Below, one piece after another: positions 3,866 to 40,819 of a stretch of 43,145 bases of DNA. The translations under genes were made by a program, and so were the position numbers. This DNA comes from Bacteroidota bacterium. GTDB lineage: Bacteria > Bacteroidota > Bacteroidia > Bacteroidales > SZUA-534. The stretch spans positions 1-43,145 of the forward strand of contig QKGS01000013.1 in NCBI GenBank assembly GCA_003250355.1, read 5' to 3'. Numbering within the stretch: the stretch's first letter is position 1; every line of letters starts with the position of its first letter. The notes beneath the pieces are model-generated. The model worked only from the letters and a program-made list of their open reading frames with translations. It did no database searches and was not told where the DNA came from.

Positions 3866-6800
3866 CTACCGCAATAAATACATTTTTCCAAATCCATTTT
3901 TAAAATATTGCTCTGTTCCTGTATTTCTTATTTTTAGTTGCTTACCGTTGAGTTTTGCATAAAAACGGTAAAAATAGACTCCGTTTGCTATTAAATCACC
4001 AAAATTATCACGCCCATCCCAGGCGTATTGAGTTACATTTTTACCAATATTAATCGGACCCAAATCTTCAAGATAAATTGATTTTATAACCTTTCCTGTT
4101 ACAGTTATTATGTCTATCCGCATTTCGTCGGGTATTTCAGAACCGGTAAGTTCAAAAACAAAACGGGTTGATGTACTGAAAGGATTAGGATAGTTAAATA
4201 CATTTGTAATAGTGCTTTCATTTATTACCTCAAAAGAGATGTGATAATCATTTAATCCCGATTCATTTCCATTATTGTCAACAGCCTGAACTCTAAGCTC
4301 ATATATGCCATCTTCAGGAAACTTCGCCGACAATATAAGTTGCGCCCTGTTCTTAGGCAATTGCGCAGGTATAAATGTTACGCTAGGATTACCATTTAGC
4401 TCAACTTTCTGTTCTATTCCCGTATTATGCGATTTTAAATAAACTGAGAACAAGCTGGTATCATTAAGCGGAATATATTGATTTTCATCTTTTAGTTGAA
4501 TCAATATATCGGGTTCGGCCGATACAATATCGCCGTCCATTATATGTAAGCCGTCAAAAGTTACATCGAGCAAGGGGTTTGTGTTGTCAAGCTCAACAAG
4601 AAAACGGCGATGAATTTGATTATTGTAAGTATTTTGCTCAAGAAATGCACTTTTGGTAATTTCATTTTGTCCCAATGAATTTAGTTGAACCACTATTGTA
4701 TTATTATTGCGCAAAGTACCGGTTTCCCAGTATACCGAATCAAATGAAAATTCTCCGATATTCAATGGTGGCAACATTTTTGTTTTAAGTGACGATGTGT
4801 TATTTTGATTGTCGATAAGCCAGTAATTAATGGAAATAGAGTCTGATGCTTTATAACTTATATTTTCATAAGCAACATAAAAATGCCCTTGGTCGCCTTG
4901 TGTTAAAGTATCGGAATAAAATTCACCCCCTCGCATTGGGTTTATTGCAATATCTGAAGTAGGTGTAAATGTTACCCTCCATTTTTTCAGCTGATTTGGT
5001 ATGGTTGTAACCGGATTATACGTTTCATAGCGAAGCTTTAAATAAGGATACTTGGCAGCTGATAACGAGCTTATATCAACAGGAGCATTGCGTAAGGTGT
5101 CGGCCAATAAGGTTTCATTGCCGCTATTGTCAATTGCATAAATAAGAGCGTGTGAATATTCGCCCGGAACAGTACTTTTATTATCCGATAATGATACTTG
5201 ATTCCATTCGGTTGCCGGTCCTATTTTTGCTGTTGTAATAAACCCGCTTGTAAAATTCGCTTGCAGATATATTTCAAAGCTTAATGGCTCTGTTGCTATT
5301 GCTGTCCGTTCATATATAAAGTTAGAATCACCCTTTTTGAACAGCATAATATATGCATCGCCATTATTTTGCAATCGAACTCTTGAATTAGGATACCAAT
5401 CTTCAAATCCTCTCCAGTTATCTTCGCCCCAACTCTCATAATTACCATTTCCTGCGTTATATATCAACACATAGTTGCCTTCATCTACCTGGTTATTTAC
5501 AAAATTTATTAATGCACTAATACCGGTAGCTGAGTTTGCAAAACAGTAATACAGGTCGGTTCTGCTGCGACTACTGCATTTCGGGTAATTTACATGCCCA
5601 TAATTACCCCTATCCGACTCCCACGGAACTAAGGTTGTAGAATCTATTATAGCCACTATCATTCGGTTAGTATTACATGAACCAAAGTCGCCGGCTTTGT
5701 CTATGTCGTAAGCTACATCGTAATACGATGCCAACGCCCCTGTTCCAAATGTATGTACGGTAAGTTTTTTAGGGCTGGTTTCAAATTCGGTTTTTCCTGT
5801 TGTGTTATTGTACTTAATGTTTTGTAATACATTATCTTTTATTTGTCCTATGCCTGTTTGTTGCCACCCCTCATCTACATTATCTATCGAAAATGAGCTT
5901 TGCGACCATACTGTTTCTGCAGAAACTTTTGATGTACGCCAATAATATGTTTTGTCTGCTTCAAAATTAATTGCCGGATTCCAACTAACAATACCTCCGC
6001 TATGTGTAAACTCATTACTTATTTTTGCCGAACTGCTAAACAAATATGAAGTATCTATCTCAAATACACTTATCTGCTCCTGAGCAAATGGGTCGCCTGT
6101 TGCTATTTTCAATGTTGGGTTCTGAATATTAATAAGACTGTATTTATAAGGAACTACCGGAAATATATTGGTCGAGGTAATATATGTTACTACCGAGACC
6201 GAATTGTTCGACTCGTTAAGCTCATTTACTTCATTGTACGAATCGAGCTGAATGCTAAATGTATTTATTCCTAACCCCTTAAACTTATCAATAGGTAATT
6301 TTATATTTATAGTTGTGGTATAATATAATTCGGGAACGGTAATAATAGTATCGTAAACAGTGCCATCGCCAAATATTCGGTTAATAGTAATAGTAAATGG
6401 CAATAATTGGGCTTTTGCTATATTTACCGGCTTAATTATCAGAGAAAAAGTATCGAGTTCGGTTGTTAATACCGATGGAGAAAAACTTATATTTTTAGGG
6501 TTTATTACAAAATCGGGCTTGGCAAAACTATTGAGTACTACACATGGGTCGCCATGAAGTGTAAACTGCTGTATGGTCGATTTATAATAACCCTCTGTTG
6601 ATATAGAAGCAAGTTCTTGCCTGCTTTTGCTTATTATTTTTCCAATTGGTTCTCCGTAACTGCTATTGCATAAATTTTCAAACAAATCACTAGAGAAGGT
6701 GTTCAAAAAATGAGCTATCCCTTCATAAACCATTGCCAAAAAACCAATAGAACCTCTTTCTGGTATTAACACCCATTTTTCACTCTGACTGCTTTGGTAT

Positions 6801-8755
6801 GGTAAAAATATATCGCCGGAGTAACACGAATTGGCTAGCAACAATGGATATCTCCCAAAATTTTTGTACGCATCGGGCTCGTCTATATTTTGGTCAAAAC
6901 CGTTTGCATTACCATGTCCGAAAAAGGTAATCATCGACACACCGTTATTTATTAAATTATCTATACTATCGGTTTTTGAAATAGTGATAGGATCGGAGCT
7001 TTTCTTTAAAAATGTAGAAACATATCCACCGAAATATGAATTTTCAAAAGTGTTTTCATACCCTTTTAAATACTTTTCAAACAAATATTGCTCCTGTGCA
7101 GTTATTCCTCCTCCAAAATGTATTGCATGCTTCATCCACTCCTGAGCCGGGTTTAGCTCAAAAGCCTGCACTTTTGCCAAATAATCGGCCACCTGCTTAT
7201 TGGAGTTTGCCGAAAGTCGTCCGGTTGGTATCGATGGTGTTATCCCACTACTCTGAATATTCGACGACAATAACACATCGGTAGCCGGATGCCCCATTGG
7301 TGGTACAAGATTATTATTATACGCTGTGCTGTTAAATCTGCATTGGTGAGCTGCAACACCCTTACCTATTATAAAAAGGTACTCAGGCTTGATAATCCAT
7401 TTGTCCTGAATGTAATTCAAAAAATTACGTATTGCAAGCGGATGCTTTGGTATACCATAGCCAAACTGGGTATATAACTCTTCAACATTTACCAACACGG
7501 CATTTCTGTAAAGGGCATAGTTTTGAGCCTGCTCCCAAAGATTTGGATGACTTATAATTACAACCTTACCTGACAAAGCCGCATAATTTGTAATAGTAGC
7601 TTTCTTTATTTCGGGTACTTTCAAAACAGATGTACTGTTTACTGCATACAATTCCGAATTAATCGACGATGCTTTAATAAGAGCTCTGTATGTTCCTCCG
7701 GAATTTTGCATTAGTATCCTTTGCATTCCGGTATTATCGAAAATATAAGCCTCAGAACTTCCGTTAAATGCCGTTATTTCTACAAGACTGGTTGTGGTAT
7801 TAGCCGGTATAGCAAATTTTTGCTCCTCCTTATTGGAAAATGCAAGATACGATGGGTATTTAATACTTATGTACGAAAGTTCTGCATATGATGTTTTTGT
7901 ATCTTTAATAGGGTAACTACTTAACGTAAACTGGTTATTTGCCGACAATGCATTTGCGCTAATTATTTTCTTAAATTTTATACCCCGCTTATCGTTGAAT
8001 ATTGTATCGGCATTTATCTGTGGGCCGCTAATATTTATAAAATAATCGCCACTTGAAATAGATGCAAAAGCAAGCGCCACCTCTGCGCTACCTCCTGCGG
8101 CATAGTAATTTGGTGTTCCTATTGTTTTTATAACTGAACCGTTTATTTCCAAACGCTTTGAATCGAAAAAGCCCTCTCCGGTATTGTATTCGCATTCAAC
8201 AGGTTCCGGGCCTGCACGATATTGTCCCGCATTAGCATTTATATATTGCTGAACAGTATCGATATAACAAAATAAAATAGGGCTATAACCCGAAAAATTC
8301 TGATTATTTATGTTTTGATATCGTAAATTATCGAACCTATTATTCCATGTTAAAAATACAGCAGCTGTATCATTTATCATACTAAAATGGGGGTTCAGCT
8401 GGTTTTCGGGGTTGTCATACATTCCTACATCGAACCAACCATTGTTTTTTTCAGCATAAAATTCAATGTATTCCAGGTTTTCAGCATTTACATAATGTAT
8501 GTAACAGGGTATCTCTTTTCCGTTTCTGAATAATTGTATGTTTTGCGGACTGGTAATATTGGCAAATGATACTCCTGCCTGCTCAAGTTCGCTTTTACTC
8601 ACACGGTATATACCGGTTTTAGGTGTACTTAACCTATAATATGTTTGAGCCTGATTTATCCATTCGTTATGGTATGTTTGGGCTTGCACTGTTGTAAATA
8701 ACAGTGAAGCTAACATACATATAGCAGTAGTGTATTTTAGAAATGTTTTTGTCAT
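3866..8755 (-). CDS. porU2: Large gingipain-fold (C25) cysteine peptidase, probable T9SS sortase-like PorU2
   Basis: 1629 aa with a signal peptide cleaved near TTVQAQ. The N-terminal third carries beta-domains typical of PorU-type proteins (YYRLSTPKTGIYRVSKSEL, YIEFYAEKNNGWFD). The C25 catalytic core spans roughly residues 400-760, with the dyad His614 in FFGHGNANGFD and Cys644 in LLANSCYSGD. Several Ig/CARDB-like beta-domains follow, and the last ~90 residues (FNYPNPFSTSTRFVFEL, WDGRDNFGDLIANGVYFYRF) form a FlgD-like or T9SS-type C-terminal domain. Known PorU is the T9SS sortase that removes cargo C-terminal domains and attaches the protein to A-LPS, and is generally about 1100-1300 aa. The extra length and the partner at 8752 favour the PorU2 variant. 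The ATG overlaps the stop of the upstream porV-like gene (ATGA), so translation is probably coupled. The sortase role is inferred from family and context. Confidence 0.75.
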   Translation of the reverse strand: MTKTFLKYTTAICMLASLLFTTVQAQTYHNEWINQAQTYYRLSTPKTGIYRVSKSELEQAGVSFANITSPQNIQLFRNGKEIPCYIHYVNAENLEYIEFYAEKNNGWFDVGMYDNPENQLNPHFSMINDTAAVFLTWNNRFDNLRYQNINNQNFSGYSPILFCYIDTVQQYINANAGQYRAGPEPVECEYNTGEGFFDSKRLEINGSVIKTIGTPNYYAAGGSAEVALAFASISSGDYFINISGPQINADTIFNDKRGIKFKKIISANALSANNQFTLSSYPIKDTKTSYAELSYISIKYPSYLAFSNKEEQKFAIPANTTTSLVEITAFNGSSEAYIFDNTGMQRILMQNSGGTYRALIKASSINSELYAVNSTSVLKVPEIKKATITNYAALSGKVVIISHPNLWEQAQNYALYRNAVLVNVEELYTQFGYGIPKHPLAIRNFLNYIQDKWIIKPEYLFIIGKGVAAHQCRFNSTAYNNNLVPPMGHPATDVLLSSNIQSSGITPSIPTGRLSANSNKQVADYLAKVQAFELNPAQEWMKHAIHFGGGITAQEQYLFEKYLKGYENTFENSYFGGYVSTFLKKSSDPITISKTDSIDNLINNGVSMITFFGHGNANGFDQNIDEPDAYKNFGRYPLLLANSCYSGDIFLPYQSSQSEKWVLIPERGSIGFLAMVYEGIAHFLNTFSSDLFENLCNSSYGEPIGKIISKSRQELASISTEGYYKSTIQQFTLHGDPCVVLNSFAKPDFVINPKNISFSPSVLTTELDTFSLIIKPVNIAKAQLLPFTITINRIFGDGTVYDTIITVPELYYTTTINIKLPIDKFKGLGINTFSIQLDSYNEVNELNESNNSVSVVTYITSTNIFPVVPYKYSLINIQNPTLKIATGDPFAQEQISVFEIDTSYLFSSSAKISNEFTHSGGIVSWNPAINFEADKTYYWRTSKVSAETVWSQSSFSIDNVDEGWQQTGIGQIKDNVLQNIKYNNTTGKTEFETSPKKLTVHTFGTGALASYYDVAYDIDKAGDFGSCNTNRMIVAIIDSTTLVPWESDRGNYGHVNYPKCSSRSRTDLYYCFANSATGISALINFVNNQVDEGNYVLIYNAGNGNYESWGEDNWRGFEDWYPNSRVRLQNNGDAYIMLFKKGDSNFIYERTAIATEPLSFEIYLQANFTSGFITTAKIGPATEWNQVSLSDNKSTVPGEYSHALIYAIDNSGNETLLADTLRNAPVDISSLSAAKYPYLKLRYETYNPVTTIPNQLKKWRVTFTPTSDIAINPMRGGEFYSDTLTQGDQGHFYVAYENISYKASDSISINYWLIDNQNNTSSLKTKMLPPLNIGEFSFDSVYWETGTLRNNNTIVVQLNSLGQNEITKSAFLEQNTYNNQIHRRFLVELDNTNPLLDVTFDGLHIMDGDIVSAEPDILIQLKDENQYIPLNDTSLFSVYLKSHNTGIEQKVELNGNPSVTFIPAQLPKNRAQLILSAKFPEDGIYELRVQAVDNNGNESGLNDYHISFEVINESTITNVFNYPNPFSTSTRFVFELTGSEIPDEMRIDIITVTGKVIKSIYLEDLGPINIGKNVTQYAWDGRDNFGDLIANGVYFYRFYAKLNGKQLKIRNTGTEQYFKNGFGKMYLLR

Positions 8756-9825
8756 TTTTTAATGTTTTGAACTGCAAAACTTAAACTGAATACGTGCGAA
8801 TATCCGGCTACAGAGACATTACCAATATCGGTAAGGGCATAGTCAATAGTTATTTGCTTTATTTTAAGTCCTAAACCGATATTTGGTTGTACAGTAGTAT
8901 ATTGCTCGCCTCTTTTTACCCCCGGTTCTTTCTGTATATTACCAATGCCGGCACGTAAAAAAACAATTTTCTTGTAATATGCTTCTATTCCCACGTGAGG
9001 GTCAATACTGAACGGATCGCCCTTTAGTAATACATTGCGCTTACCATCGGTAGTTATGTCAAAGTTCAATTCGCCGAGTACGCCAAATTTTTTGCCAATA
9101 GAATAATCATACGATGCCCCAAGTAACAGCCTTGGCAACATTACTTCACTGCCGTTATGCGGTATTGCATTTCCCGTAAGGATGTATATATCTTTTAACT
9201 CAGCAAGATTGTAATTCCATGAATTAAAAGTAGTTGTAGCATCGCGCAATACTGCTGCAAAATTCCACTGTTTGTAGGTGTATAACGCAGAAGCATCAAT
9301 ACCAAACCCCCACGACGATGCAAATTTACCCACTATGCGACGTATTATTTTTACATTACCCCCTATACTTAGCCCTTCAACAGGCATTGTGCGGGCATAA
9401 CTGAGGTAAAATGCATAGTCTGCCGCCGAAAATGAGCGTATCTTATCAAATTGAATATTGCCGTTTTCGTCAATTAATTTGCGGGTATCGGGTATGTCAT
9501 CAACAGCAAACCGTATAAGTGAAGCTCCAAAACTTGCCTTTTTATCTATCTTAAATGCTGTACCTATAAAATCGAATTTCGATAAGCCTGCAAAATATTC
9601 GGCGTGCATTAATCCAATATTCATGGGATTTATTTGTTGTGTCAGAGCCGCCGGATTCCAATATGTTGCCGATTCACCTTTTACTGAAGTTATGGTACTG
9701 TTTGCCATAGCAAACGATCTGGCACCAACACCTATTGACATAAATTCATTGGTATATTTATATGTTTGAGCACATATACTTATGGAAAATAGTAATATTG
9801 TTATTATAATTAAAAAACGATTCAT
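8752..9825 (-). CDS. porV2: PorV/PorQ-family outer-membrane beta-barrel protein, probable PorV2
   Basis: 357 aa with a signal peptide (MNRFLIIITILLFSISICAQ). The N-terminal signature FMSIGVGARSFAMANSTIT...ESATYWNPAALT is diagnostic of the PorV/PorQ (UPF0164, FadL-like) barrel family. The rest is alternating amphipathic strands ending in YSHVFSLSFAVQ, as expected of an outer-membrane barrel. PorV shuttles T9SS cargo from the translocon to the PorU sortase. Here the gene lies directly upstream of the C25-peptidase gene with a 4-base overlap, which argues for a dedicated PorU2-PorV2 complex. The core T9SS PorV would be expected elsewhere in the genome, but that cannot be checked here. Confidence 0.8.
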   Translation of the reverse strand: MNRFLIIITILLFSISICAQTYKYTNEFMSIGVGARSFAMANSTITSVKGESATYWNPAALTQQINPMNIGLMHAEYFAGLSKFDFIGTAFKIDKKASFGASLIRFAVDDIPDTRKLIDENGNIQFDKIRSFSAADYAFYLSYARTMPVEGLSIGGNVKIIRRIVGKFASSWGFGIDASALYTYKQWNFAAVLRDATTTFNSWNYNLAELKDIYILTGNAIPHNGSEVMLPRLLLGASYDYSIGKKFGVLGELNFDITTDGKRNVLLKGDPFSIDPHVGIEAYYKKIVFLRAGIGNIQKEPGVKRGEQYTTVQPNIGLGLKIKQITIDYALTDIGNVSVAGYSHVFSLSFAVQNIKK

Positions 9826-13446: not shown

Positions 13447-13632
13447 ATGACAATTATTATGAGCAAAGCAAAAGTTTCTAAAATAGTATGGATTATTGCA
13501 CTTATTACAGGTGCAGTTGCAGTATTAGGTGAGTATGGCTGGATTACAGTTAAGTGGTTTACCCACATACATTTTGAAATATTACTTGTAGGTTTTTGTG
13601 TACTAATTTTAGGACGCTTATTCAAAATTTAG
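13447..13632 (+). CDS. Small two-helix membrane protein of unknown function
   Basis: 61 aa, or 57 aa if the second ATG at 13459 (MSKAKVSK) is used. Two hydrophobic segments (about residues 13-34, VWIIALITGAVAVLGEYGWI, and 42-59) are separated by a short loop, and the protein ends in GRLFKI. The next ATG downstream, for the YfiR-like gene, is 8 bases after its stop, so the two are probably cotranscribed. It has no recognisable family. Its position and clean two-helix hydropathy favour a real gene. Confidence 0.6.
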   Translation: MTIIMSKAKVSKIVWIIALITGAVAVLGEYGWITVKWFTHIHFEILLVGFCVLILGRLFKI

Positions 13633-13640
13633 TATTTATT

Positions 13641-14174
13641 ATGAGTTTTCGCTTAACTTTAATTCTTGTTTTTATATCAATAGTTTCATTTAGCCAAACG
13701 CCTGCAGAGCAAACAAAAAAAGCACTGTTTATGCTTAATATTACCAAATATGTTCGATGGGAAGACCGTTCGCAATTTGGCAAGGGGTTTACCATTGGAG
13801 TTGTACGCGATTCTGAAATGGCCGGTGAGCTTAGGCAAATGTCTGAAAACAAAACTATTCTGGGGAAGAAAATTGATATTGTTGAATTTTATAGAATTGA
13901 CGATATTGAGCAATGTGACATCCTCTATTTGTCCGATAAAGTATTCGTTACCGATAAAATAATAAACTATCTAAATGGAAAAATCGATGGTCACCCAACA
14001 TTAATTATTACCGATAGAGCCGAACGTGTTGCTATGATTAATTTTTTTGTTCGTAATTACGACAATGGTATTATTTACGAGGTTAATAAGCGTAATATGG
14101 AAAATGCAGGAATATTACCTTTAGGGGGGTTATTGAAAAAGAAAAATAGCAGGATAAAAGAAGATTATCCATAA
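13641..14174 (+). CDS. YfiR/HmsC-like (DUF4154) exported protein
   Basis: 177 aa from ATG 13641, chosen because it opens a clear signal peptide (MSFRLTLILVFISIVSFSQ); a longer frame from 13596 would overlap the preceding gene. The mature part has the DUF4154 pattern: KKALFMLNITKYVRWE near the N-terminus, FTIGVVRDSEMAGEL, the ILGKKIDIVEF strand, CDILYLS, and the final INFFVRNYDNGIIYEVN. In Pseudomonas, YfiR is a periplasmic repressor of the diguanylate cyclase YfiN. No YfiN-like gene is adjacent here, and Bacteroidota relatives often occur next to histidine kinases or TonB receptors instead, so the partner is unknown. Convergent with rodA. Confidence 0.72.
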   Translation: MSFRLTLILVFISIVSFSQTPAEQTKKALFMLNITKYVRWEDRSQFGKGFTIGVVRDSEMAGELRQMSENKTILGKKIDIVEFYRIDDIEQCDILYLSDKVFVTDKIINYLNGKIDGHPTLIITDRAERVAMINFFVRNYDNGIIYEVNKRNMENAGILPLGGLLKKKNSRIKEDYP

Positions 14175-34659: not shown

Positions 34660-35976
34660 ATGGCAACTTTTACTTTTTTACCTATCGGCAAAACCGATAA
34701 AGCAAATATCTATTTGCGACTTTCAATTGACCGCAATAATGTTTTTAAGAAAAACACAGGTTTTACAGTTAATCCAAATCACTGGAGCAAGAAAACACAC
34801 CTACCTAAAACATCGTCAGAAGATTTAAAACGATTAAAAACCGATTTAGAGAGTTTACGCAACAAAGTTGAAAAGCAGTATAATGCTGCAATTGCCGATA
34901 AGGTTTCTATCAGTGGCGAATGGTTGCAAAATGAAATTGATTCAGCACTAGGAAAGAAAAAGAAAACCGATATAGACCGTTTTGTTAATTACCTTGACAT
35001 ATACACCGCCAACTTAAATAATACCATAAGGAGCAACAATAAAAAAGGGGTAAGTAAAAATACTATTCAAAAGTTCGGCACTCTTAAAAGTAAGATATTA
35101 GATTTTGAAAAGCACACAAAGAAAAAACTATACATAAAAGATATTAACCTCGCATTTCGCAATAAGTTAATAAAGTATCTTGAAGAAGTAGAGCAATATT
35201 CAGGAAACTACATTGGCACAATACTAAAGAATATTAAAACAGTATGTAACGATGCTAAATTAAACGGCATAGAAACACATACTCAACTAAGTTATATTAA
35301 AGGTTATACAGTTGACACCGAAATAGTATTTTTATCGTTTCAGGAACTTGAATTAATAGAGAATACAGAATATAGCAGAGATGCTTTAGCAAATGCGAAA
35401 GATTGGTTAATTATTGGCTGTTACATAGGGCAACGTGTTTCTGATTTACTTACCCTAACAAGTTCTAACGTAACCGTAAAAAATGGGTGTAAACTTATTG
35501 AACTAGCACAAGATAAAACAGACAAACGTGTTGCAATACCTTTACACCCTAAAGTTAAAACTATATTAGATAAGCGAAATGGAGAGTTTCCACGAAAAAT
35601 ATCAGACCAAAGGTTTAATACATACCTAAAAGAAGTTGCAAAACTGGCAGGATTAACCCAACCAACTAAAGGAGGGGTTGAAAAAACAATTTCGCTAAAT
35701 GGTAAAAAAGTAAAAAGAAAGAAGTTTGGCACTTATCCAAAATGGGAACTAGTATCTAGCCACATATGCAGACGTTCTTTTGCTTCAAACTTTTACGGAG
35801 ATATACCAACCGCATTACTTATCCAAATAACAAGGCATTCTACCGAAAAAGAGTTTTTAAAATATATCGGCAAATCAGAAACAGACCACGCCCAACAACT
35901 AGCGGAATACTGGACTAAACAAGCAGTTGAGGCAAAGCAAAAACCACACCTCAACGTTGTTAAAAAAGCAAATTAA
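34660..35976 (+). CDS. Tyrosine-type site-specific integrase
   Basis: 438 aa. Residues ~1-95 are an arm-binding-type N-terminal domain (FLPIGKTDKANIYLRLSIDRN, ITVNPNHWSKK-like), ~110-215 a SAM-like core-binding domain (SKNTIQKFGTLKSKILDFEKHTKK), and ~220-430 the catalytic domain. The active-site set is present: Arg259 (YIGQRVSDLLTL), a Lys in the AQDKTDKRVAIPL hairpin, His368 and Arg371 (SSHICRRSFASNF), His393 (RHSTEKEF) and nucleophile Tyr402 (LKYIG). This is the family used by Bacteroidota integrative elements. It sits at the end of the element distant from the tRNA. Confidence 0.94.
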   Translation: MATFTFLPIGKTDKANIYLRLSIDRNNVFKKNTGFTVNPNHWSKKTHLPKTSSEDLKRLKTDLESLRNKVEKQYNAAIADKVSISGEWLQNEIDSALGKKKKTDIDRFVNYLDIYTANLNNTIRSNNKKGVSKNTIQKFGTLKSKILDFEKHTKKKLYIKDINLAFRNKLIKYLEEVEQYSGNYIGTILKNIKTVCNDAKLNGIETHTQLSYIKGYTVDTEIVFLSFQELELIENTEYSRDALANAKDWLIIGCYIGQRVSDLLTLTSSNVTVKNGCKLIELAQDKTDKRVAIPLHPKVKTILDKRNGEFPRKISDQRFNTYLKEVAKLAGLTQPTKGGVEKTISLNGKKVKRKKFGTYPKWELVSSHICRRSFASNFYGDIPTALLIQITRHSTEKEFLKYIGKSETDHAQQLAEYWTKQAVEAKQKPHLNVVKKAN

Positions 35977-40428: not shown

Positions 40429-40747
40429 CTCTATTTAGTATAACTAAAACCCACGAAAACCCCATATCCAACAAATTACTTAACTTGTATGTAAAGAAGA
40501 TTTATTAAAAGATACTGTAATAGACATTATAGATTGCACACGCACTATAAAAATAATTTACCTCGTTTTTCAAACAATAAAAACCTTACAAATCGAACAC
40601 CATAAAAAAGAGTTTTTTTAGTCCATAAAAAGAATAGGTATAAAATAAAGGAATAAGAAAAATAAAGATGGTTGACAAATAGTTGGCAAACATTAAAATA
40701 AAAACACTATAATATACTGATAATAAGGAAAGAAGAAAAATCAAAAG
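40429..40747. other. 319-bp non-coding end of the mobile element
   Basis: No gene. A-rich sequence with a doubled GTTGACAAA-type repeat at 40670-40690 and the attachment site at its right edge. A short A-run/T-run pair at 40604-40620 may act as a weak terminator for rep, but the stem is all A-T. Confidence 0.55.
40670..40690 (+). repeat. Doubled GTTGACAAA repeat near the right end (integrase arm-site candidate)
   Basis: GGTTGACAAAT then AGTTGGCAAA matches 34603-34623 at 19 of 21 positions in the same orientation. It is 56 bases inside the right attachment site and has no gene downstream that would need a promoter here, which favours a recombination role. Confidence 0.65.
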
Positions 40748-40769
40748 TACCCCCACCAGGACTCGAACC
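40746..40769. other. Right attachment site overlapping the tRNA-Arg 3' end
   Basis: AGTACCCCCACCAGGACTC followed by GAACC covers the acceptor 3' strand and T-arm of tRNA-Arg and pairs with the diverged left copy at 34449-34471. Confidence 0.72.
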
Positions 40770-40819
40770 TGGATCAACAGTTTAGGAAACTGCTATTCTA
40801 TCCCTTGAACTATGAGGGC
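40748..40819 (-). tRNA. tRNA-Arg (anticodon CCT)
   Basis: The minus strand folds into a full cloverleaf: acceptor GCCCTCA with TGGGGGT (two G-T pairs), D-arm GTTC/GAAT, anticodon stem GCAGT/ACTGT around TTCCTAA with anticodon CCT, short variable loop, and T-arm CCAGG-TTCGAGT-CCTGG. The discriminator is A and CCA is not encoded. It decodes AGG. The adjacent mobile element is integrated at its 3' end without breaking it. Confidence 0.93.

Follow-up and report, generated by a model that had tools for sequence, protein, structure and literature searches.

The locus presented here raises the question of why a genome that carries the sortase PorU and the barrel PorV of the type IX secretion system (T9SS) should contain a second pair of such genes. 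The window, i.e. the whole stretch of 43,145 nucleotides that was analysed (contig QKGS01000013.1 of a Bacteroidota bacterium), has two adjacent genes on the minus strand. The gene porV2 (8752..9825) codes for an outer-membrane barrel of the PorV/PorQ family with 357 amino acid residues, and porU2 (3866..8755) codes for a sortase-like protein of peptidase family C25 with 1629 residues. In the literature found, sorting by the T9SS has so far been studied through PorU and PorV. The sortase function consists of removing the C-terminal domains of cargo proteins and joining the cargo to anionic lipopolysaccharide (A-LPS), and PorU keeps its own C-terminal domain. In our view PorV2 and PorU2 probably make up a second, dedicated sortase complex in the outer membrane, which would be able to replace PorU and would have some role independent of the translocon SprA.

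Family assignment and core sortase genes of the source genome

The coordinates of the open reading frames confirm the coupled pair proposed in an earlier note on this DNA, in which the end of porV2 and the start of porU2 overlap by 4 bases (8752..8755, minus strand). PorU2 gives 690.8 bits against NF052324 (cut-off 450, residues 11-851) and PorV2 gives 457.4 bits against NF052325 (cut-off 325), two models of NCBIfam, the set used by NCBI for genome annotation. Since both proteins are above these cut-offs, the pair is not a chance arrangement. PorV2 also matches PF19572 with 33.1 bits. Both are below the models of the core proteins: 176.8 bits for PorU2 against PorU (NF033707, cut-off 420), and for PorV2 36.3 bits against PorV (NF033710, cut-off 250) and 76.3 bits against PorQ (NF033711, cut-off 220), so that PorV2 is nearer to PorQ than to PorV. 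The family names, "putative type IX secretion system sortase PorU2" and "putative type IX sorting system protein PorV2", are not new. The pair is real and widespread, and it is so far uncharacterised in the literature found; a search made largely without subscription papers gave no paper on PorU2 or PorV2 under these names.

The source genome (106 contigs, 99.98% complete) contains three C25 proteins and three barrels of the PorV family. The core porU-porV operon is located on contig C36 and PorQ on contig C94, and the porV2-porU2 pair is therefore an additional one, as the earlier note had supposed. The third C25 protein (contig C89, L008 7377-11714) is of the gingipain-like cargo type, with a pro-domain (Propeptide_C25), a CUB domain and a carboxypeptidase-regulatory-like domain. 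The core PorU of this genome has 1242 residues. PorU2 is 387 residues longer, which agrees with the unusual length stressed in the earlier note. However, 1629 residues is ordinary among PorU2 proteins, whose open frames are mostly of about 1600-1900 residues, and length was rejected as a sign of novelty. Shorter frames (1091-1348 residues) occur in family f13 (labels such as f13 and g42 are the family and genus labels of the tool used).

A tree was built from 84 C25 domains, after exclusion of three core PorU with short domain matches and five unrelated open reading frames. In it, core PorU (18 rows) forms one group with a support of 99 in the Shimodaira-Hasegawa-like approximate likelihood ratio test, and PorU2 (65 rows) lies across a weakly supported branch (74). 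PorV and PorV2 are likewise separate in the barrel tree. The PorU and PorU2 groups co-occur in the same genomes, and so do PorV and PorV2.

N-terminal and catalytic domains of PorU2

Two AlphaFold models of PorU2 were used: m54fe19d9d7af for residues 1-865 (mean predicted local distance difference test score 90.9, predicted template modelling score 0.89) and mbd2b15c22098 for residues 850-1629 (90.1 and 0.65, respectively). A signal peptide was recognized by eye at about residues 1-25. It is followed by N-terminal domains (residues 27-390; 7586..8677, minus strand), and residues 25-780 of the first model align to PorU (PDB code 6za2) with Z 18.9 and a root-mean-square deviation (rmsd) of 6.8 over 579 residues. 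The C25 catalytic domain (residues 396-745; 6521..7570, minus strand) matches PF01364 with an E-value of 4.4e-55 (residues 399-740), and it superimposes on gingipain RgpB (PDB code 4ief) with Z 38.7 and rmsd 2.5 over 318 residues. The putative catalytic residues His614 (codon 6914..6916) and Cys644 (codon 6824..6826, both on the minus strand), already pointed out in the earlier note, do not vary in any of the 43 aligned PorU2 proteins, and PorU2 qualifies as a peptidase of family C25.

These structures allow a first alternative to be weighed, namely that PorU2 is a gingipain-like protease which is itself T9SS cargo, carried by PorV2 as its private barrel, and which degrades outside proteins without any sorting. 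The C25 fold of PorU2 is indeed closest to the gingipains, cargo-type C25 proteins such as L008 exist in the source genome, and type B cargo is known to have private barrel carriers (PMC12618676). However, the model of PorU2 shares the N-terminal domains of PorU along residues 25-780, and a Pfam scan of the window PorU2 at an E-value of 1 gave no Propeptide_C25 match, unlike L008. A further argument comes from three genomes without porU, described below, in which PorU2 is the sole C25 protein. We regard this explanation as unlikely.

Distribution and gene linkage

The distribution was counted in 395 genomes of the phylum with the NCBIfam cut-offs. PorU2 was found in 33 genomes, PorV2 in 68 and core PorU in 257; 25 of the 33 genomes with PorU2 also contain PorV2, and 29 contain core PorU. 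The arrangement of the genes was compared in 80 named loci collected with a PorU2 profile, adjacency being defined as PorV2 on the same strand not more than 300 bases upstream. PorV2 lies directly upstream of PorU2 in 64 of these loci, and 24 of the 64 adjacent pairs have exactly the 4-base overlap of the window. Seven of the 16 non-adjacent loci have too little upstream DNA. Among the other nine, PorV2 is found within 500 bases in two (L127, L133) and before a split PorU2 in one (L099), and six have no PorV2 in the flank. In 41 further loci, including the window, PorV2 is adjacent in 20. The linkage recurs in families f1, f5, f11 and f12, and the nearest named relatives are metagenome-assembled genomes of Salinivirgaceae.

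The 41 loci were also examined for a third linked gene, and none is common to all families. A divergent gene for a PspC-domain protein stands beside the locus in f11, f12 and f13 (11 of the 41 loci, in 11 genomes), together with a gene for a PadR-type regulator in 10 of the 41 loci; examples of this envelope-stress protein and regulator are L062 4077-6449 and L063 4054-6839, with 9 further loci. The pair is also present at the locus in three genomes without PorV2. These neighbours hint at envelope-stress control. In f5, a gene for tyrosine-tRNA ligase is found beside the locus (10 loci, 10 genomes).

Several single loci are also of interest. Two consecutive PorV2-like barrels occur near PorU2 in Saprospiraceae (L127 4950-7603 and L145 from position 45 onward). 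In L181 (5878-8206), where PorV2 has no PorU2 partner, the gene after it resembles the lipoprotein N-acyltransferase Lnb (187.6 bits, cut-off 550), and genes of similar size stand next to PorV2 in L180, L182 and L192. Three PorV2 proteins from genomes lacking PorU2 were scanned and are above the PorV2 cut-off and below those of PorV and PorQ, and a fourth, from another class, is just below the PorV2 cut-off.

The C-terminal domain and its relation to PorV2

The C-terminal domain of PorU2 (residues 1516-1629; 3869..4210, minus strand) is FlgD-like. The match to PF13860 is below the cut-off in the window PorU2, and the FlgD_ig domain is found in 49 of 49 relatives at an E-value of 0.1 or better. 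The earlier note was right that PorU2 has its own C-terminal domain, but this is not a distinguishing mark, and was rejected as such, as core PorU likewise ends in an FlgD-like domain. The last 240 residues of the model can be superimposed on the C-terminal region of PorU 6za2 with Z 10.1 and 22% identity; the rmsd of 12.8 over 198 residues shows that this alignment spans more than one domain. No match of the window PorU2 to TIGR04183, the type A C-terminal domain of cargo, was found at an E-value of 0.001 or better.

It is important to compare the conservation of this domain in proteins with and without a linked PorV2. The comparison was made for pairs with a catalytic identity of 0.3-0.75 and at least 50 aligned C-terminal positions. 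The 57 PorV2-linked pairs of the same family have a mean identity of 74% in the C-terminal domain and of 44% in the catalytic domain, a mean difference of +0.30, in contrast to -0.09 in genomes without PorV2. Within f11 alone, the PorV2-linked values are 80% and 50% (9 pairs), while PorU2 proteins of genomes without PorV2 (f11, f13) have only 32% in the C-terminal domain and 41% in the catalytic domain (27 pairs). Core PorU does not regularly have a C-terminal domain better conserved than the catalytic domain: the values are 0.36, 0.52 and 0.57 for pairs from f5 and 0.41 for one pair from f11, but 0.89 for one pair from f8.

A profile of the C-terminal domain was trained on the named loci and the window. 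All 30 PorU2 proteins from genomes with PorV2, of which the window protein alone belonged to the training set, score 116 to 183, whereas the 8 PorU2 proteins from six genomes without PorV2 all score no higher than 58 or are not matched. Distant PorU2 proteins of other classes score 52-75 and core PorU 18-77. Three of four second PorU2 copies have lost the PorV2-type domain. The second, unlinked copies of G126 and G533 (L044 7943-12847 and L223 7152-12050, in a genus without core porU) have a type A sorting domain instead, with 53.7 and 52.4 bits against a cut-off of 23. TIGR04183 is likewise matched above its cut-off by the PorU2 protein of G146.

Because the C-terminal domain is kept with PorV2 and lost without it, the data suggest that it docks on PorV2 and is released from this constraint once PorV2 is gone, although the independent events are few. 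The dedicated complex proposed in the earlier note fits this joint fate and the linkage across several families. A membership of PorV2 and PorU2 in a cell-surface attachment complex would likewise be in line with this gene linkage and joint conservation.

Genomes without core porU

Three genomes of f5 belonging to three genera (G007, G091 and G126) have PorU2 as their only C25 protein, in 1, 2 and 2 copies, respectively. All three retain SprA, PorV and type A domains (8, 52 and 96 matches). The genes that usually surround porV are in place in all three, with 367, 535 and 451 bases at the position where porU is expected, and no remnant of PorU was detected at these loci by tblastn at an E-value of 0.01. 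With porU gone and SprA, PorV and the cargo domains kept, PorU2 is the only C25 candidate sortase in these genomes. An indirect sign is seen in G497, G566, G510, G575 and G533 of the same genera, which have no second match resembling core PorU beside PorU2. PorU2 seems to have taken the place of PorU in genomes of three genera.

Retention of the pair in genomes without detected SprA

In f5, the family that contains genus g42, SprA was sought with one profile and is above the cut-off in 186 of 195 genomes. The nine genomes without it by this profile are G269, G412, G571, G503, G500 and four incomplete ones (60-79%). G269, G412, G571 and G503 are all four sampled members of g42; they are 99% complete and consist of one contig each, apart from G503 with about 20 contigs. 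PorU2 is above the cut-off in G269, G412, G503 and the incomplete G496 and G538, and is not above it in G571, G500, G528 and G432.

In the three g42 genomes G269, G412 and G503, PorU2 is full-length (853-900 bits) and PorV2 lies directly upstream. These PorU2 proteins are mutually 56-64% identical, with proportions of differing synonymous sites (pS) of 0.78-0.80 and of nonsynonymous sites (pN) of 0.24-0.29. Since this identity is retained with synonymous sites near saturation, the g42 PorU2 is under purifying selection. The catalytic dyad is kept, and the C-terminal domain, 79-88% identical, is the best conserved part. The possibility that the g42 PorU2 is a lipoprotein was rejected: the three proteins have ordinary signal peptides and no lipobox, as judged by eye.

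PorU and PorV were also not found in G269. This genome has one type A match (E-value 2.2e-4) and one type B protein. The latter (L215 7303-9693), a lipobox protein by eye, adjoins a barrel of the PorP/SprF family (156.4 bits), and this pair sits beside SusC/SusD genes, apparently without a translocon.

Retention in g42 without detected SprA is the strongest reason to believe that PorV2-PorU2 is not simply a T9SS component. Either the pair has a role without SprA, or there is another exit or an undetected translocon. A second alternative goes further and makes the pair wholly independent of the T9SS, using another export route or the periplasmic face, so that its T9SS look would be due to ancestry. 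The three g42 genomes with their upstream PorV2 and well-conserved C-terminal domain speak for it, as does the loss of PorU and PorV in G269. However, SprA was sought with one profile only and the motor genes of g42 were not sought, G269 keeps its type B protein beside the PorP-type barrel, G571 and G500 (99-100% complete) have neither SprA nor PorU2, and ten other genomes of the family above the PorU2 cut-off have SprA. Complete independence is quite unlikely in our opinion. The second sorting route beside the core complex envisaged in the earlier note could apply to the source genome with its extra pair, but not to the genomes in which PorU2 is the sole C25 protein or is kept without detected SprA.

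The last alternative, a redundant paralogue kept by drift and lost without effect, would agree with the coexistence with core PorU in 29 of the 33 genomes and with one PorU2 broken by stops (G115), but it is most improbable in view of the selection seen in g42, the dyad unvaried in all 43 proteins and the pair kept across several families. The broken gene (L052 6704-11767) is split into several frames, and the upstream PorV2 and the core PorU (L175) of this genome are intact.

The FAM3/ILEI-type and CARDB-type domains

Between the catalytic and C-terminal domains PorU2 has a FAM3/ILEI-type domain (residues 994-1168; 5252..5776, minus strand), recognized by fold and profile. Residues 145-319 of model mbd2b15c22098 superimpose on the stem domain of POMGNT1 (PDB code 5ggj) with Z 16.8 and rmsd 2.1 over 142 residues. 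This match arose in a second look with VIA-align and is not among the 50 listed rows of the Foldseek ranking for the C-terminal model, whose top rows are alpha-2-macroglobulin-like and complement chains with template modelling scores of 0.1-0.2. PF15711 (ILEI) is found in 32 of 49 relatives at an E-value of 0.1 or better (best 3.5e-12), and the window PorU2 itself is not matched in the Pfam scan. When a profile of the region was compared with the whole PDB, all six matches at an E-value of 10 or better were FAM3A, FAM3B, FAM3C and POMGNT1 (0.0019 to 0.076). A profile of the region matches 115 of 131 PorU2 entries and misses 16; it was trained on 49 of the proteins found, and some entries are counted twice through overlapping loci. 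It has no match in any core PorU fetched, and five core PorU proteins scanned with Pfam have no FAM3/ILEI-type domain at an E-value of 1. This domain sets PorU2 apart from core PorU. A second domain of the region, an immunoglobulin-like domain of CARDB type (residues 1262-1390; 4586..4972, minus strand), resembles 3idu with Z 13.3 and rmsd 2.6 over 110 residues.

Sugar binding is known for the POMGNT1 stem and for FAM3C, the contacts in POMGNT1 being Arg129, Asp179 and Arg207 (PMC9802357). In P. gingivalis the attachment complex consists of PorU, PorV, PorQ and PorZ (PMC8545088, PMC11285876), PorV anchors PorU, and PorZ presents A-LPS to PorU (PMC8545088). Because of this last function, a role of the FAM3-type domain in glycan handling may be proposed by analogy, as a guess.

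Proposed mechanism and its weak points

In the mechanism favoured here, the PorV2 barrel would hold PorU2 at the cell surface through the C-terminal domain of PorU2 itself, in the way PorV anchors PorU. The C25 domain with Cys644 and His614 would cleave, and perhaps transfer by transpeptidation, surface proteins as its cargo. The FAM3-type domain would be positioned to present a glycan acceptor or to bind the substrate, the task that PorZ performs for PorU. The pair would mostly act beside core PorU-PorV and could persist as the sole C25 sortase candidate.

Several observations weigh against this proposal. The two genes, although strongly paired, are also found apart: 43 of the 68 genomes with PorV2, including members of families f6 and f7, have no PorU2, and 8 of the 33 with PorU2 have no PorV2. 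Two of these 8 (G079, G237) have PorV2-like matches below the cut-off. PorV2 is not the sole conserved neighbour, since the PspC-domain and PadR genes recur in f11-f13. A tandem second PorU2 copy in G166 keeps the PorV2-type C-terminal domain, and scores of 151-197 for this domain are also reached at eight named loci that have no PorV2 within 300 bases; two of the eight have PorV2 within 500 bases, and the search covered the flanks, not the rest of these genomes. A phylogeny-aware test of the association between PorV2 and the C-terminal domain, which left out distant-phylum rows and the named loci, had three independent pairs on supported branches, two in the same direction and one without difference (p 0.5). 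Persistence in g42 ill fits a purely T9SS-bound role. The presumed equivalents of the sugar-site Asp and Arg, placed by spacing, face Asn in the PorU2 consensus; this rests on HMMER alignments with FAM3A and FAM3C, in which the equivalent of Arg129 is outside the aligned part. Binding of N-acetylglucosamine as in POMGNT1 is unsupported by the aligned residues.

A bolder form of the proposal is a self-contained surface sortase of two genes, comprising the enzyme, a FAM3-type domain for glycan handling and a barrel dock, which replaces PorU and also works without SprA. We put it forward tentatively, as a possibility that may hold but is doubtful. If it is true, docking of a C-terminal domain on a barrel would be a module that can be separated from type IX export. 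Genomes without PorU or SprA that contain PorV2-PorU2 would be natural test strains in which the roles of sortase, barrel and C-terminal domain could be told apart, and the absence of PorU from a genome does not mean the absence of a sortase. A FAM3-type domain, otherwise seen in cytokine-like proteins of animals and in the stem of a glycosyltransferase, gives in a bacterial sortase a lead on the choice of glycan acceptor.

Other genes of the window

Two secreted-looking proteins (by eye) are encoded near porV2-porU2, at 278-1285 and 1463-2980. The first has a type A sorting domain match below the cut-off (19.5 bits, cut-off 23), and the second has no NCBIfam or Pfam match. A YfiR/HmsC-like protein (PF13689) is encoded at 13596-14174, with a TTG start listed. 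A phage-type integrase (34660-35976) and a tRNA-Arg gene (40747-40819) are found in the same half of the window, and a mobile element may lie between them.

Comparison with known systems

The nearest known system is PorU-PorV of Porphyromonas gingivalis, with which the pair shares the C25 fold, the N-terminal domains, the C-terminal FlgD-like domain and an adjacent gene for a PorV-family barrel. It differs in the gene order (porV2-porU2 against porU-porV), in the length of PorU2 (some 300-500 residues more), in the FAM3-type domain, in the higher conservation of the PorU2 C-terminal domain where PorV2 is present and in the separate tree groups. The barrel PorV of F. johnsoniae binds cargo C-terminal domains by its extracellular loops inside SprA (PMC10994853).

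With PorQ-PorZ the pair has in common that PorV2 is nearer to PorQ, though below the PorQ cut-off, and the FAM3-type domain might fill the A-LPS role of PorZ in cis. FAM3/ILEI proteins and the POMGNT1 stem resemble the domain in fold and, in PorU2 relatives, in sequence, but here it is bacterial and fused to a C25 enzyme, with the sugar-site Asp and Arg apparently replaced in the consensus. PorP/SprF with type B cargo is a similar case, in which a barrel serves certain C-terminal domains specifically (PMC12618676), whereas PorV2 is a PorV-family barrel partnered with a C25 enzyme. Finally, NF052324 and NF052325 are the family pair of the window proteins themselves, under putative names; compared by description only, their name and description line say nothing of the FAM3-type domain or of the patterns of loss reported here.

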